From Desulfurobacterium atlanticum (GTDB lineage: Bacteria; Aquificota; Aquificia; Desulfurobacteriales; Desulfurobacteriaceae), in contig NZ_FZOB01000003.1 of assembly GCF_900188395.1 (NCBI RefSeq), forward strand, positions 132,418-196,417: a DNA stretch of 64,000 bases, in the 5' to 3' direction. The notes below the pieces were generated by a model. It saw only the letters and a list, made by a program, of their open reading frames with translations. It was not told the DNA's origin and searched no databases. This document shows, piece by piece, positions 4,507-9,586 of this stretch (positions are counted from its first letter, which is position 1; the number at the start of each line of letters is the position of its first letter). Made by a program: the position numbers and the translations under genes.

Positions 4507-5127
4507 TTATTTCAGAATAATTTTCCGTCCTTTTTTGTCTATTTTACCGCTTTTTCTAAGGCGGGATACTGCTCTTGATACTGTTTCAACAGTTAATCCC
4601 AGCTCCATTGCTACAAAACTTGTTTTAAATTCAACTTCTCCTTTAGAGTTGCTATTCTCTTTTATGTATTCGTAAACTTTTGAAACAGCATCTTTCAGCG
4701 TCAGTTTCTCCACAAGATTTACAAGGTAAAACAATCTTTCAGAAAGTATTCCAAGCATTTTTAGTGCTGTTTCTGGATTATGTTTTATGATATTAATCAG
4801 CGTTGTTTTTTCAAGCAGTAAAAGAGTAGAATTTTCAAGAGCTATAGCGTTTGCAGGATAATTTTCTCCTTTAAAAGTTCCAGCTTCTCCCAGCATTGAT
4901 ACTGGTGTAAAAATTCTAAGGGTTTGTTCCTTTCCACTTAAGGATTTATACAGCTTAACTTTCCCTTCTATTAAAATAAAAACACCCTTTGCTTTTTCGT
5001 AAGAGGAGAAAATAAGTTCACCTTTGCTGTAGTGTTTTTCTATCAATGAATATTCTATTTCCCTAATTGTTTTTTCTGGTAAACTGGAAAAAAGAGGAAT
5101 TGTCTTTAATATGTTATAAATAGACAA
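4507..5127 (-). CDS. Crp/Fnr family transcriptional regulator
   Basis: 206 residues. The N-terminal two-thirds is a cyclic-nucleotide-binding-type beta barrel (IPLFSSLPE..., GVFILIEGKVKLY, PVSMLGEAGTF). A dimerisation helix follows, then a winged helix with recognition segment LGLTVETVSRAVSRLRKSG near residue 175. No N-terminal Cys cluster of the FNR iron-sulfur type is present, so it is more like DNR/HcpR-type or heme-sensing members. It lies immediately downstream of the YgbA and CooS-like genes on the same strand. An Fnr-like palindrome upstream of that set (7862-7875) is a candidate target. It is convergent with the diguanylate cyclase gene, with only 2 bases between the stops. Confidence 0.85.
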   Translation of the reverse strand: MSIYNILKTIPLFSSLPEKTIREIEYSLIEKHYSKGELIFSSYEKAKGVFILIEGKVKLYKSLSGKEQTLRIFTPVSMLGEAGTFKGENYPANAIALENSTLLLLEKTTLINIIKHNPETALKMLGILSERLFYLVNLVEKLTLKDAVSKVYEYIKENSNSKGEVEFKTSFVAMELGLTVETVSRAVSRLRKSGKIDKKGRKIILK

Positions 5128-5177
5128 ACTTTCCTCCTTCTGTTTTCTACTTTAATTTATCAAGGAACATGGTTTTT

Positions 5178-5483
5178 TCAACTGTGTTTTATCTCTTCTA
5201 TTTTATGTTTTAGCCACTCCAAAGGTGTGTAAAATATCATTCTTGGTCCGCTGTATTTCATTACCAGCCTTATTTTTTCTCTCATTTCAGGTGAATAGCA
5301 ATGGATGGGACATTTTTTACAGGAAGGTTTGTTGTCTTTAAAGGGACAAAGGTCAAGCCTTGTAAACGAATAGTTTAAAAGAGTTTTACACTCTTCACAA
5401 AGCTGATGGTAGGTTTTATGTTTTCCTTTACAGTATATTTCAATCATTTTTCTTATAACTTTCTTTTCCTTCTCTATACTCAT
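5178..5483 (-). CDS. ygbA: YgbA-type nitrous oxide-stimulated promoter family protein
   Basis: 101 residues. The conserved block CPF...KPSCKKCPIHCYSPEMREKIRLVMKYSGPRMIFYTP matches the YgbA_NO family, whose E. coli member is induced by nitrosative stress. Seven Cys residues are present, several in CXXC or CXXXC arrangements (CEEC, CKKCPIHC), which suggests a metal or iron-sulfur site. The gene lies between a Crp/Fnr regulator and the CooS-like gene on the same strand, which supports a role in NO or hydroxylamine stress. A hairpin upstream of the gene may partly separate it from the CooS-like transcript. The biochemical function of the family is not firmly known. Confidence 0.8.
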   Translation of the reverse strand: MSIEKEKKVIRKMIEIYCKGKHKTYHQLCEECKTLLNYSFTRLDLCPFKDNKPSCKKCPIHCYSPEMREKIRLVMKYSGPRMIFYTPLEWLKHKIEEIKHS

Positions 5484-5511
5484 GGATCCTTCCCGCTCAT
5501 AGATAAATAGA

Positions 5512-5530
5512 AGGCGGGGAATCCCCGCCT
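5512..5530 (-). terminator. GC-rich hairpin after the CooS-like gene
   Basis: A perfect inverted repeat (AGGCGGGG / CCCCGCCT) with a three-base loop lies between the CooS-like stop and the ygbA start. On the minus strand it is followed by a T-rich stretch (TTCTATTTATC). It is probably an intrinsic terminator or an intercistronic stabilising hairpin. Confidence 0.6.
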
Positions 5531-5566
5531 GAAGGAATATGGAAGAGGAGGAGTTAACTCCCGGTA

Positions 5567-7483
5567 TTATATACCGAGAGCTTCTCTTTTCTTTAGAATG
5601 TGGGCTTCTATTCCATCTGCCACGGCTACAGGGTCATCTCCTATTGCTATTTTTCCACCTGTAAGTGCTTCAACATCTTCAAGGAGAAGTTTCACAACCT
5701 TATCAGAGCCTGTTACTGGTGGAGTTGGGGAAACATGAGTGTAAAGACCCATAGCAACGGCAGAGAATCCATCTATTACAGCCTTCTGTTCCATATATTC
5801 TGGTGCTGTAACAGCTACAGGAAGGTCTGCTGTATCTACTCCGAGAGCGTTTGCTATGGCAACAACAGTCATTACGATTCTTCCTGTATCTGTACATGTT
5901 CCAAACGATAGTACTGGTGGAATACCGAGTGCTTTACATACGCCTTTTAGCTTTTCTCCTGCATACTTTTCGGCTGCTTCAAGGGTCTCAAGACCGGCCA
6001 TCTGTAATCCTCCATTTCCACAACCGGCACCTATCACAAGAATGTCCCTTTTTATAAGTTCTTTTGCAAGTTCAACGGTGAGCTTGTCCTGTGGGCCGTT
6101 TCCAAGGCTTGAACAGTTAACAAGGGCAACAACACCCTTTATATCTCCTGACTTTATGACCTCAAGTAGCGGAGTAAGACTTCCGCCTAAAGCGTTTATT
6201 ATTGCTTCTGCTGAGAATCCTACGATCGCTTTTTGTCTGTAGGAAGTAAGGTTTTCTGGCTTAACAGAAGCTTTTCTCTCTTTAAAGTTTTCAATGGCAA
6301 GTTTGATAATTTTTTCTGCTACTTCCTTTTCATTTCCTGGTTTATACTCTATTCTTTCTGAGCCTGGAACACCTATTATGTTTGTTACAGCTACAAGTTT
6401 AAATTTATATTTGTCTGCATATTCTTTAAGGTTTGCAAGGGAACAGTTCATATCCATAGCAAATACATCAACCGCTCCAGAAGAGAGAAAATATTCAATT
6501 CCTATCCAGTTTGATGTTAGGCCTGCAAATGTTTCTGATAGATTGTTTCTTGCAAGAAGTTCCTGTCCTGTTTCAATAGAACCTACAACTCTTATTCCTT
6601 TGGCTCCAGCTTCTTTTGCCATCTGCTGAAACTTTTCATCTTTTGCAAGTTCTATAAGTGCCTGTCCCACGAAAGGCTCGTGGCCGTTTGGAAGTATGTT
6701 TACGTAGTCCGGGTCAAGAACGCCAAGATCAACTTCACCTTCATGAGGTGATGGAGTGCCGTATAGAGCATCCTGCATGAGTTCAAGGGGAACAAGAGAA
6801 CCAAATACTGATGCCACTCCGTTTCTTAATGCTGCAAGGGCAAGAGTAATGTAGTCTCCGTCAATGTTTGTCATTCCTCTTGTTACAGAGTCAACGAGCT
6901 CCTGATAAGGTCCTTTTGGGAAGATGCCAAGTTTTCTGAAAACCTCTTTTCTTGATTCAGGTGCAAGTTTTTCAACAAGTGTTGATTCTCTGTTTTCAGC
7001 AAGTAGCTGGAGATATTTTTCAGCTACCGCTTTTGCTTTTTCGTTTAGTTCAAGAGATTGATCAATATCAAGGATATCTGCTAAAAGGTCTATTTTTGAT
7101 GGGTCTTTGATTGTGTAGATTGTTTTGCCTTCTGCGGTTGCTTTCAATGTTTCAGCAACCTCTCTTGCATGGTATGTATATGCTGCAAGTCCCATGTTTG
7201 TTTTGTGAAGGAGGTTTCTCATAACGATACCGTGGGCGTCAATTCCACATACTCCCCTTGGGGTTTGAGGAGTGATACGGCACGGTCCCATGGAACACAG
7301 CTGACAGGAAATACCCTCTTTACAGAATTTACACCTTATTTTTTCCATCGCTTCGTATCTGTCAGCAACGTTTGACATCTGGGCTTTTTTAACTTTTTCG
7401 TACATGTAGTTAATGCTTTCATGGTAGCTTATAATTTTTCCGTTTTTTTCCTCTGTGTTTGACCCAAAGAATTTTTTAAGCAT
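5567..7483 (-). CDS. cooS: CO dehydrogenase-fold protein with altered C-cluster (CooS-V-like), probably not a true CODH
   Basis: 638 residues, the usual length of a CooS catalytic subunit. The N-terminus has CKFC...CQLC...GPC...VCG (Cys 51, 54, 60, 63, 68, 79): a B-cluster plus a CX2C D-cluster motif of the Desulfovibrio type. Most C-cluster residues are present: His268 in NGHEP, Cys347, Cys457, Cys488, Cys530 and the QKA lysine at 567. At the position of the canonical GxCCTGNE the sequence is GSIETGQE, so the C-cluster Cys is replaced by Glu304. The usual histidine relay GHSxHxRH is reduced to one His (H105). This matches the deviant CooS-V class, in which a Fe/S/O hybrid cluster acts on hydroxylamine and not CO. 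No CooF, CooC or acetyl-CoA synthase gene is nearby. It overlaps the upstream cupin gene by 8 bases. Confidence 0.85.
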   Translation of the reverse strand: MLKKFFGSNTEEKNGKIISYHESINYMYEKVKKAQMSNVADRYEAMEKIRCKFCKEGISCQLCSMGPCRITPQTPRGVCGIDAHGIVMRNLLHKTNMGLAAYTYHAREVAETLKATAEGKTIYTIKDPSKIDLLADILDIDQSLELNEKAKAVAEKYLQLLAENRESTLVEKLAPESRKEVFRKLGIFPKGPYQELVDSVTRGMTNIDGDYITLALAALRNGVASVFGSLVPLELMQDALYGTPSPHEGEVDLGVLDPDYVNILPNGHEPFVGQALIELAKDEKFQQMAKEAGAKGIRVVGSIETGQELLARNNLSETFAGLTSNWIGIEYFLSSGAVDVFAMDMNCSLANLKEYADKYKFKLVAVTNIIGVPGSERIEYKPGNEKEVAEKIIKLAIENFKERKASVKPENLTSYRQKAIVGFSAEAIINALGGSLTPLLEVIKSGDIKGVVALVNCSSLGNGPQDKLTVELAKELIKRDILVIGAGCGNGGLQMAGLETLEAAEKYAGEKLKGVCKALGIPPVLSFGTCTDTGRIVMTVVAIANALGVDTADLPVAVTAPEYMEQKAVIDGFSAVAMGLYTHVSPTPPVTGSDKVVKLLLEDVEALTGGKIAIGDDPVAVADGIEAHILKKREALGI

Positions 7484-7808
7484 CTTTCCCTCCTGCTGTT
7501 TTTAGTTTTAAAACGAGAAATTTAAAAGTTTTATCTCCTGTATTTTCAAGCCGGTGGGGAATGTTGGCAGGGCTTTCAATAAGGTCGCCTTCTTTCACCT
7601 TCTCTTTTTCTTCCCCTATCTCAACTATTCCTTCACCAGATAGAATGAAAAAGAGAACATCTACCGGGGTTTTGTGAAGTTTTAACCCTTCCCCTTTCTC
7701 AAGGGTTATAAGGTTTACAGAGATGTCATCTCTTTCAAGGAGTTTTTGAGCTTTTACTTTGTGTGGATTATCAAATGGGGATACAGATTCGCTTTTAATT
7801 ATCTTCAT
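7476..7808 (-). CDS. Small single-domain cupin protein
   Basis: About 110 residues forming one cupin beta barrel (LEKGEGLKLHKTPVDVLFFILSGEGIVEIGEE, then GDLIESPANIPHRLENTGD). Possible metal ligands are the His of LKLHK and the His of IPHRL; the usual HxH-E set is reduced. There are two adjacent ATG codons (7811 and 7808); the second has the better distance from the GGAGG site at 7813-7817. The gene overlaps the start of the CooS-like gene by 8 bases, so the two are translationally coupled. It is the first gene of the minus-strand set, downstream of an Fnr-like palindrome. Substrate or ligand is unknown. Confidence 0.75.
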   Translation of the reverse strand: MKIIKSESVSPFDNPHKVKAQKLLERDDISVNLITLEKGEGLKLHKTPVDVLFFILSGEGIVEIGEEKEKVKEGDLIESPANIPHRLENTGDKTFKFLVLKLKTAGGKDA

Positions 7809-7861
7809 CATACCTCCAGAACTGTTTTTATTTAATCTGTTAGAATTTGATTAGAATTACT

Positions 7862-7875
7862 TTGATTCAGGTCAA
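7862..7875. promoter_or_regulatory. Fnr/Crp-type palindromic operator
   Basis: TTGAT-TCAG-GTCAA differs by one base from the Fnr-type consensus TTGAT-N4-ATCAA. It lies between the divergent cupin-CooS genes (minus) and the DNA glycosylase gene (plus), about 55 bases before either start. A T/A-rich minus-strand hexamer near 7830-7835 would put the site near -45. The Crp/Fnr protein encoded at 4507-5127 is the obvious candidate regulator (inference). Confidence 0.45.
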
Positions 7876-7919
7876 ATTTAATGATAATAATTACTGTTTC
7901 TATTAATCAGGAGAGAGCA

Positions 7920-8626: not shown

Positions 8627-9001
8627 ATGGTTGTAGGGATACCTGTAATTGAAAAGGAGATAGATGGGAAGAGAATTGTAAGCCCTTACTTTGGAAGAGC
8701 TCCAATGTTTCTTATCTACAATGATATTACAGGAAAAACAGTTCTTGTTTCAAATCCAAAGATGAAATCCGGTTGCGGTGGTGGAGCTGGAAGGTTTATC
8801 TTTGATACGTTTATGAGAAACGGAGTTGATGTTGTTCTTGTTAAAGGAATCGGAGAGGGAGCTTTTTACAATCTTGAGAGAGCAGGAATGAGGGCCTATC
8901 TTGTTCCTTCAGATGTAAAGTTTGTTGATGAGGCGATAAAACTGTTTAAAGATGGAAAGCTAAAAATTCTGGATAGACCTTTTGAATCTCACAATCATTG
9001 A
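8627..9001 (+). CDS. NifX/NifB-type dinitrogenase iron-molybdenum cofactor family protein
   Basis: 124 residues of the Nitro_FeMo-Co fold: MVVGIPV...SPYFGRAPMFLIYN near the N-terminus, a central GCGGGAGRFIFDTFMRNGVDVVLVKGIGEGAF, and a C-terminal LFKDGKLKIL. Members bind iron-sulfur or FeMo clusters or act in unknown metal-cluster handling in organisms without nitrogenase. The start has a GGAGGTGA ribosome site. It is followed 12 bases later by a DUF1847 gene. With no nif genes in view, a nitrogenase role is not implied. Confidence 0.8.
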   Translation: MVVGIPVIEKEIDGKRIVSPYFGRAPMFLIYNDITGKTVLVSNPKMKSGCGGGAGRFIFDTFMRNGVDVVLVKGIGEGAFYNLERAGMRAYLVPSDVKFVDEAIKLFKDGKLKILDRPFESHNH

Positions 9002-9013
9002 AAGAGGTTTACG

Positions 9014-9586
9014 GTGAAATGTCATCTATGTGAAGATAGAGGATGTTATAGAGAGGGGAAGGTTTGTGTTGAGTCTTCCAATAATCTCCTCTTACCTGAA
9101 GAGGAGATGAAGATTTTAAAAACAGCATCTTTGATAGAAAAAGAGTTCTACTGTAAGATGACGCGGATTGAGGAGATTGTAGAGTTTTCAAAAAGGATGG
9201 GTTATAAAAGGATCGGTATTGCTTTCTGTATCGGGCTTTTTGATGAAGCAAAAATTGTTGCGGATATTTTCTCAAAAAAGGGATTTGAAGTGTTCTCTGC
9301 TGTTTGTAAGTTAGGCAGTGTGGATAAAGATATTTTCAATCTGCCGAAGTTACAGGATGGTAAAGAGGCGATTTGTAATCCTGTAAAGCAGGCAGAGGTT
9401 TTAAATAAAAAGAAGACCGATTTAAACATTATTATCGGGCTTTGTGTTGGTCACGATATTTTATTTCAGAAATATTCTGAAGCACCTTCAACAGTTCTTA
9501 TTGTTAAAGATAGGGTTTTAGCACACAATCCTGTAGGGGCACTACACACACCGTATCATTTAAGAAGAATTTTAGAAGATAAATAA
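9014..9586 (+). CDS. DUF1847 family Cys-rich protein
   Basis: 190 residues starting at a GTG with an AGAGG site upstream. The N-terminus has CHLCEDRGCYREGKVC, a likely metal-binding motif. The remainder fits the DUF1847 family: RIEEIVEFSKRMGYKRIGIAFCIGL, then GLCVGHD and the C-terminal VLAHNPVGALHTPYH. Invariant-looking Cys residues sit in FCIGL, VCKLG, AICNP and GLCVGHD, suggesting cluster binding or redox chemistry. The function of the family is unknown. It lies directly after the NifX-like gene and probably shares its transcript. Confidence 0.75.
   Translation: MKCHLCEDRGCYREGKVCVESSNNLLLPEEEMKILKTASLIEKEFYCKMTRIEEIVEFSKRMGYKRIGIAFCIGLFDEAKIVADIFSKKGFEVFSAVCKLGSVDKDIFNLPKLQDGKEAICNPVKQAEVLNKKKTDLNIIIGLCVGHDILFQKYSEAPSTVLIVKDRVLAHNPVGALHTPYHLRRILEDK

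Follow-up and report, generated by a model that had tools for sequence, protein, structure and literature searches.

What role can a protein with the fold of a carbon monoxide dehydrogenase (CODH) have when the cysteine pair of the CODH active-site motif is missing and the genome encodes no other prismane-family protein? We addressed this question for the cooS-V locus of the vent thermophile Desulfurobacterium atlanticum (genome size 1.74 Mb), which lies on the minus strand at positions 4507-7876 of the 64,000-nt stretch analyzed here (hereafter, the window). Our analysis suggests that the CooS-V enzyme, predicted to carry a morphing Fe/S/O hybrid cluster and not a Ni-Fe cluster C, probably takes the place of hybrid cluster protein (HCP), which this genome lacks, within an operon for nitrosative stress. 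In the direction of transcription, the locus comprises a palindrome, a cupin gene, cooS-V, ygbA, and a crp/fnr gene, with all genes on the minus strand. A first-pass annotation of this DNA had placed and named the four genes in the same way, and the family models agree:

7861-7876: palindrome of the HcpR/FNR type, TTTGATTCAGGTCAAA (read on the minus strand, TTTGACCTGAATCAAA), located 49 nt ahead of the cupin start
7476-7811, minus strand: small cupin, an accessory gene (Cupin_2, PF07883, E=5e-17), with an 8-nt overlap with the cooS start
5567-7483, minus strand: cooS, encoding a predicted CODH-like hybrid-cluster enzyme of the CooS-V type (structural group D-1), 638 aa (TIGR01702, 799 bits)
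5512-5530, minus strand: GC-rich hairpin with a weak T run behind it, between cooS-V and ygbA
5178-5483, minus strand: ygbA, YgbA_NO family, 101 aa (PF11756, E=1.9e-38)
4507-5127, minus strand: Crp/Fnr family regulator, cysteine-free, recognition helix GLTVETVSR (PF00027 and HTH_Crp_2)

The enzyme resembles CooS-V rather than active CODHs

Its ligand set, its match to the solved CooS-V structure, the match of its model, and its grouping in a tree all place the window protein in clade D, structural group D-1 in the classification of Inoue et al. (PMC6344411). Judged by its sequence, it is a CooS-V orthologue, and thus belongs to an enzyme type that is already known (2019, 2022).

Residues were numbered against a CODH-II sequence, whose motif positions match the ligand numbers in PMC9311411. 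In the alignment, the CODH-II motif GICCTGNE reads GSIETGQE in the window protein, with Ile303 in place of Cys294 and Glu304 in place of Cys295. The other C-cluster ligands are retained (His268, Cys347, Cys457, Cys488, and Cys530), as is Lys567, and a glutamate (Glu565) is gained two residues before this lysine, at the place of HCP Glu494. Only one of the four histidines of the CODH-II relay is left: His96 is kept as His105, and His93, His99, and His102 correspond to Tyr102, Glu108, and Glu111. The five-Cys/one-His set of cluster C is therefore broken and the His93-102 proton relay is incomplete, so that neither hallmark of a Ni,Fe-CODH is intact. Cys51 and Cys54 form the CXXC of a type III D-cluster, and Tyr102 occupies the place of the catalytic histidine. 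CooS-V of C. hydrogenoformans carries the identical substitution at the Cys295 place and shares with the window protein the remaining ligand set, including the glutamate two before the lysine, the CXXC D-cluster, the tyrosine for His93, and the fold.

Among solved proteins, this CooS-V (7b7q) was the nearest by sequence (693 bits, 53% identity; next, 416 bits). The AlphaFold2 model of the window protein (mean pLDDT 89.9) matched 7b7q with a Z of 57.1 and an rmsd of 1.3 Å over 623 residues, with true CODHs close behind (6t7j: Z 56.5, rmsd 2.7, 37% identity). The class III HCP of Methanothermobacter marburgensis (7e0l), a homodimer-type HCP with a hybrid cluster, belongs to the same superfamily but is far more distant than CooS-V (Z 30.1 and 22% identity, versus 57.1 and 53%), and the window protein did not pass the HCP family model (TIGR01703: 58.1 bits against a cut-off of 360.8).

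The ligand set of CooS-V recurred in 78 of the 80 named loci in a family-alignment search, the remaining two being truncated genes. A tree built from 108 proteins placed the window protein among 21 Aquificota Glu-type proteins that form one group with full support, separate from true CODHs and HCPs; clustering with active CODH clades, which would have told against the earlier reading, was not seen. The CODH tree rooted with HCP, meant to show if the Glu type is ancestral, had a very long HCP branch and a support of 81, and settles neither the root of the Glu type nor whether all Glu-type rows form a single clade. Other Aquificota (loci L130-L133) and a second Methanoperedens CooS read GS(L/M)CTGQE, retaining the ligand cysteine. 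In Methanoperedens, this second CooS (GSMCTGQE; L112 and L117, 4473-6401) lies ~3.5 kb from the Glu-type CooS-V, such that Cys-type and Glu-type paralogues occur in one cluster.

The characterized CooS-V holds an Fe/S/O hybrid cluster, lacks CO chemistry, has a redox-gated channel, and reduces hydroxylamine slowly (Jeoung et al., PMC9311411); the CODH-II variant C295E is Ni-deficient and does not oxidize CO (PMC9311411). We thus predict that the window protein is not a CO enzyme. The alignment and the model uphold what the first-pass annotation had described: Ile-Glu for Cys-Cys within a CODH fold that keeps most C-cluster residues, a relay reduced to one histidine, and a likeness to CooS-V. 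Its remark that the glutamate recalls an HCP ligand also fits, with Glu304 at the Cys295 place, as in CooS-V, and Glu565 at the HCP Glu494 place.

CooS-V as the sole prismane-family protein

The window's genome contains a single PF03063 gene, cooS-V, which encodes its only prismane-family protein. CooS-V was present in every one of the 22 Desulfurobacteriaceae genomes sampled, a true CODH was found in addition in only two (D. thermolithotrophum and G012), and HCP was found in none. In outside groups, 13 of 40 genomes with CooS-V had no second prismane gene, many of them being incomplete metagenome-assembled genomes (MAGs). CooS-V-like genes were previously described as occurring only in genomes with several CODHs and with no obvious context link (PMC9311411). 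These counts, the sole copy in the window's genome, and the conserved operon described below differ from this statement.

A conserved operon and operator in Desulfurobacteriaceae

Of the 22 family genomes, 21 had a readable locus and 20 had intact upstream DNA. In all readable loci, cooS-V is followed by ygbA, on the same strand and within 100 nt, and then by crp. The remaining genome is split at the locus, with ygbA beside a cooS-V fragment. In the window's genus, crp is transcribed in the same direction as cooS-V and ygbA; in other genera it is convergent, yet always adjacent; as the orientation differs between genera and the neighbourhood does not, the adjacency has outlived an inversion. 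YgbA was found in 22/22 Desulfurobacteriaceae genomes versus 0/39 other relatives, and ygbA is a member of the NO-sensitive NsrR regulon (PMC1274295). The module proposed in the first-pass annotation therefore holds for YgbA and the Crp/Fnr regulator, whose co-occurrence with this CooS variant extends to every readable locus of the family; the cupin, present in only 2/21 loci, is not conserved. We rejected the cupin as a core part in Desulfurobacteriaceae, despite cupins beside CooS-V in three outside loci (L071, L084, and L089). Similarly, YgbA was rejected as a general CooS-V partner, its adjacency being confined to Desulfurobacteriaceae.

The gap between cooS-V and ygbA contains a GC-rich hairpin behind the cooS-V stop codon in 20/20 family loci, with a sequence that varies between genera. 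This hairpin is possibly a partial terminator or an mRNA end that sets the ratio of CooS-V to YgbA.

All 20 family genomes in which the upstream DNA is intact carry a palindrome, TTGA(C/T)-N4-(A/G)TCAA, upstream of the CooS-V operon; it mostly sits 70-100 nt ahead of cooS-V, or ahead of the cupin gene in loci that have one. Apart from C/T variation at the fifth base, it is near the HcpR consensus wyTTGACnnnnGTCAArw (PMC1274295). The Fnr-like palindrome noted in the first-pass annotation is thus present (7861-7876) and conserved, although the window alone contains two TTGAYN4RTCAA matches versus 0.57 expected, which is not beyond chance. The palindrome is the sole perfect TTTGAYN4RTCAAA match in the 1.74-Mb genome; we dropped this uniqueness as evidence, since a control pattern was equally rare, and counted conservation alone. 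In the window, 5 nt also separate the palindrome from the first start codon of a divergent AGOG-type glycosylase gene. In other genera, the divergent gene differs and the palindrome stays with cooS-V.

The regulator is cysteine-free in the window and in nearly all family relatives, and is therefore not an Fe-S FNR. Its recognition helix is GLT(V/K/A)ETVSR across the family; extrapolating from E. coli FNR, we take this type of helix to recognize TTGA half sites. The conservation of the palindrome suggests that the two form a pair. Among solved chains, the nearest named NO regulator was DNR (3dkw, E=4.6e-14), the third match. With a Crp/Fnr protein free of cysteines and an HcpR-type operator, the regulator appears HcpR-like. 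The HcpR-controlled hcp operons of Desulfovibrio and Clostridium share with this locus a Crp/Fnr regulator without Fe-S cysteines, a similar palindrome, and a cupin or FrdX-type partner (PMC1274295, PMC5701242); the Desulfurobacteriaceae operon differs in having a CODH-derived enzyme for hcp, in the joined ygbA, and in lacking FrdX. A close parallel to the cupin-cooS-V pair of the window is the cupin-hcp pair of D. desulfuricans (Ddes_1828-1829), which is NO-induced, with hcp under HcpR2 (PMC5701242). A D. desulfuricans cooS (Ddes_0382) of unassigned CODH type is also NO-induced (PMC5701242) and is not used as evidence.

CooS-V neighbourhoods outside the family

The outside comparison covered 67 CooS-V loci from other groups. 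We found a FrdX-like ferredoxin within three genes in 12 of these loci, MsvR in 9, flavodiiron proteins in 8, Crp/Fnr and ferredoxin-thioredoxin reductase-like proteins in 5 each, and Rrf2 and rubrerythrin in 4 each. A ferredoxin of the same family (E=7e-49) lies beside hcp in a locus of Clostridium thermopalmarium (L136) that also has a Crp gene, a position suggesting that it corresponds to the FrdX of PMC1274295. In five loci of Methanoperedens and relatives, a multihaem cytochrome, mostly with eight CXXCH motifs, lies directly downstream of cooS-V and matches hydroxylamine oxidoreductase (HAO)-like proteins (6h5l, E=2.7e-35); such a neighbour is drawn for Methanoperedens BLZ2 in PMC13079737, without the reading proposed here. 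Overall, the outside neighbours of CooS-V resemble those of hcp. Redox-type neighbours made up 59/360 near genes versus 13/740 far genes, a comparison that is biased and descriptive only, as the panel was picked from near neighbours.

One Actinomycetota MAG (L071) encodes a cupin, crp, cooS-V trio with a perfect TTGACTTAAGTCAA upstream and a rubrerythrin two genes on. A perfect TTGAC-N4-GTCAA was present upstream of CooS-V in this locus and in L085, and in 0/524 control upstream regions. Simple patterns for NsrR-, MsvR-, and HcpR2-type sites found none upstream of CooS-V outside the family. Taking clade D as one unit, a 2026 context survey found only a weak association with regulators, saw no clear pattern, and set the clade aside (PMC13056359).

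Nitrogen and carbon metabolism of the host

We found neither NapA nor a kindred molybdoenzyme in the window's genus (G000-G003), and no NapA in D. thermolithotrophum. In most other Desulfurobacteriaceae genera, one cluster encodes both a NapA-like enzyme and an octahaem HAO-like protein (L149, 2427-8965; L152, 4308-10899; L150, 3390-6299; best solved match 4qo5), and no NrfA scored over the cut-off in the NapA-bearing genomes of the family. The window's genome has an octahaem gene of this kind on a different contig, next to a NapC-type cytochrome gene but without napA. Hydroxylamine or nitrite chemistry is possible in this organism; its earlier description as ammonifying or nitrate-using is not supported, given the absence of NapA from its genus.

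Acetyl-CoA synthase (ACS; CdhC, PF03598) was absent from 25/25 Aquificota, the window's genome included, and was found in two archaeal controls; the first-pass annotation had reported no such gene nearby, and this holds genome-wide. Its statement that cooF and cooC are absent nearby likewise stands: no gene on either side of the operon in the window was recognized as one of them, a genome-wide search not having been made. The window also contains ATP-citrate lyase and isocitrate dehydrogenase-type genes of the reverse tricarboxylic acid (TCA) cycle, named by eye. D. thermolithotrophum and G012 (L003 and L002) encode a true CODH (GMCCTGLE), yet gave no CdhC/ACS match, and a full CODH/ACS is not evident.

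A probable role in nitrosative stress

In the mechanism we favour, NO or a related oxidant would be sensed by the cysteine-free, HcpR-like Crp/Fnr regulator, which would bind the palindrome and switch on (cupin-)cooS-V-ygbA. A ferredoxin would then supply low-potential electrons to CooS-V, its channel would open, and the reduced [4Fe-3S] cluster would reduce a small N-oxide, a reaction demonstrated solely as slow hydroxylamine turnover by the C. hydrogenoformans protein. The observations behind this proposal are the ligand set, fold, and clade of the enzyme, the conservation of the operon and its operator, and the absence of HCP and ACS. The pairing of regulator and site, the signal, the electron donor, and the true substrate are the steps we infer. 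A regulated stress-type module, as the first-pass annotation had envisaged, is thus supported; its nitrate or ammonifying setting is not.

Several points weigh against this proposal. The C. hydrogenoformans CooS-V turns over hydroxylamine with a kcat of 0.13 s-1 and a kcat/KM of 20 M-1 s-1, no NO reduction was detected, and its potentials lie ~300 mV below those of HCP (PMC9311411). Hydroxylamine is doubtful as the true substrate because kcat/KM is so low and NO reduction went undetected. With nitrate reductase missing from the window's genus, the N-oxide would have to come from outside or from side reactions. Roughly half of the 67 outside loci lack any recurring neighbour of the stress type, and ygbA does not occur within six genes of cooS-V outside the family and exceeds the cut-off in only 9/40 genomes. 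The redox-type neighbours, moreover, suit oxidative stress too. The main rival is a module for redox or oxidative stress in general (O2, peroxide, or persulfide), in which CooS-V reduces another small oxidant or senses redox, because the case for the substrate is weak given the low published rates and the unseen NO reduction. It would also account for the neighbours of the MsvR, Rrf2, rubrerythrin, flavodiiron, and ferredoxin-thioredoxin reductase-like types, the window's genus lacks NapA, the C. hydrogenoformans enzyme is poor with NH2OH and inactive with NO (PMC9311411), and a redox-sensing role has been suggested for clade D (PMC13056359). YgbA and the HcpR-type operator, which indicate NO, and the HAO-like partner in Methanoperedens argue against this alternative, which we consider considerably less likely than the nitrosative-stress reading.

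In nitrate-ammonifying members, CooS-V could instead act in the cytoplasm as the hydroxylamine reductase at the end of a route from Nap via an octahaem cytochrome and hydroxylamine to ammonium, in place of Har/HCP and similar to a reversed hydroxylamine-ubiquinone redox module (reverse-HURM), as described for Nautilia (PMC10092268; PMC3701875). Such genomes combine NapA, an adjoining octahaem HAO-like gene, and CooS-V, without NrfA over the cut-off and without HCP; in G008, cooS-V and napA are ~14 kb apart on one contig, and CodH was present in the proteome of nitrate-grown Thermovibrio ammonificans (PMC5441870). We nevertheless consider this improbable, as CooS-V is equally conserved where NapA is absent, in the window's genus and in D. 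thermolithotrophum, its kinetics are slow, and NirA has been proposed as the nitrite reductase (PMC5441870). Far less probable still is a working Ni-CODH feeding the reductive acetyl-CoA pathway, which the fold and annotation (TIGR01702) would allow and which was proposed for T. ammonificans CodH, with its NiFeS residues said to be kept (PMC5441870). That protein, the type V CodH Theam_1337 (L126, on the chromosome), is an orthologue from the same family with the same operon. Both it and the window protein have glutamate at the Cys295 place, where CODH-II C295E loses Ni and CO oxidation; ACS is absent from the Aquificota searched, and the window encodes reverse TCA cycle genes of the ATP-citrate lyase type. 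Because Theam_1337, the only prismane gene of its genome, carries the Glu motif and that genome has no ACS, the predicted protein contradicts the reductive acetyl-CoA claim for CodH.

Beyond the family, we tentatively suggest that the CooS-V class took over the role of HCP under HcpR-type or equivalent redox regulators, reducing hydroxylamine or NO. It would catalyse the last, cytoplasmic step from hydroxylamine to ammonium in nitrate-ammonifying Desulfurobacteriaceae and in Methanoperedens, and may have been misread as a set of CO or carbon-fixation enzymes. The protein type itself is known; what is new is the operon with its apparently HcpR-like control, the probable substitution for HCP, and a correction to the claim on carbon fixation in Thermovibrio. 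CooS-V has had a crystal structure and no assigned role so far. Once the Glu-type proteins are split off and viewed family by family, a role that can be tested emerges, together with a native operon that has its own regulator and operator.

Other genes near the operon

Beside the operon, the window encodes a NifX/NafY-like (Nitro_FeMo-Co) protein and a DUF1847 protein (8627-9586); in other Desulfurobacteriaceae genera, the divergent gene next to cooS-V is the NifX-like one. On the other side, at 394-2087, two overlapping open frames rich in CXXCH represent multihaem cytochromes, adjoined by a diguanylate cyclase gene.

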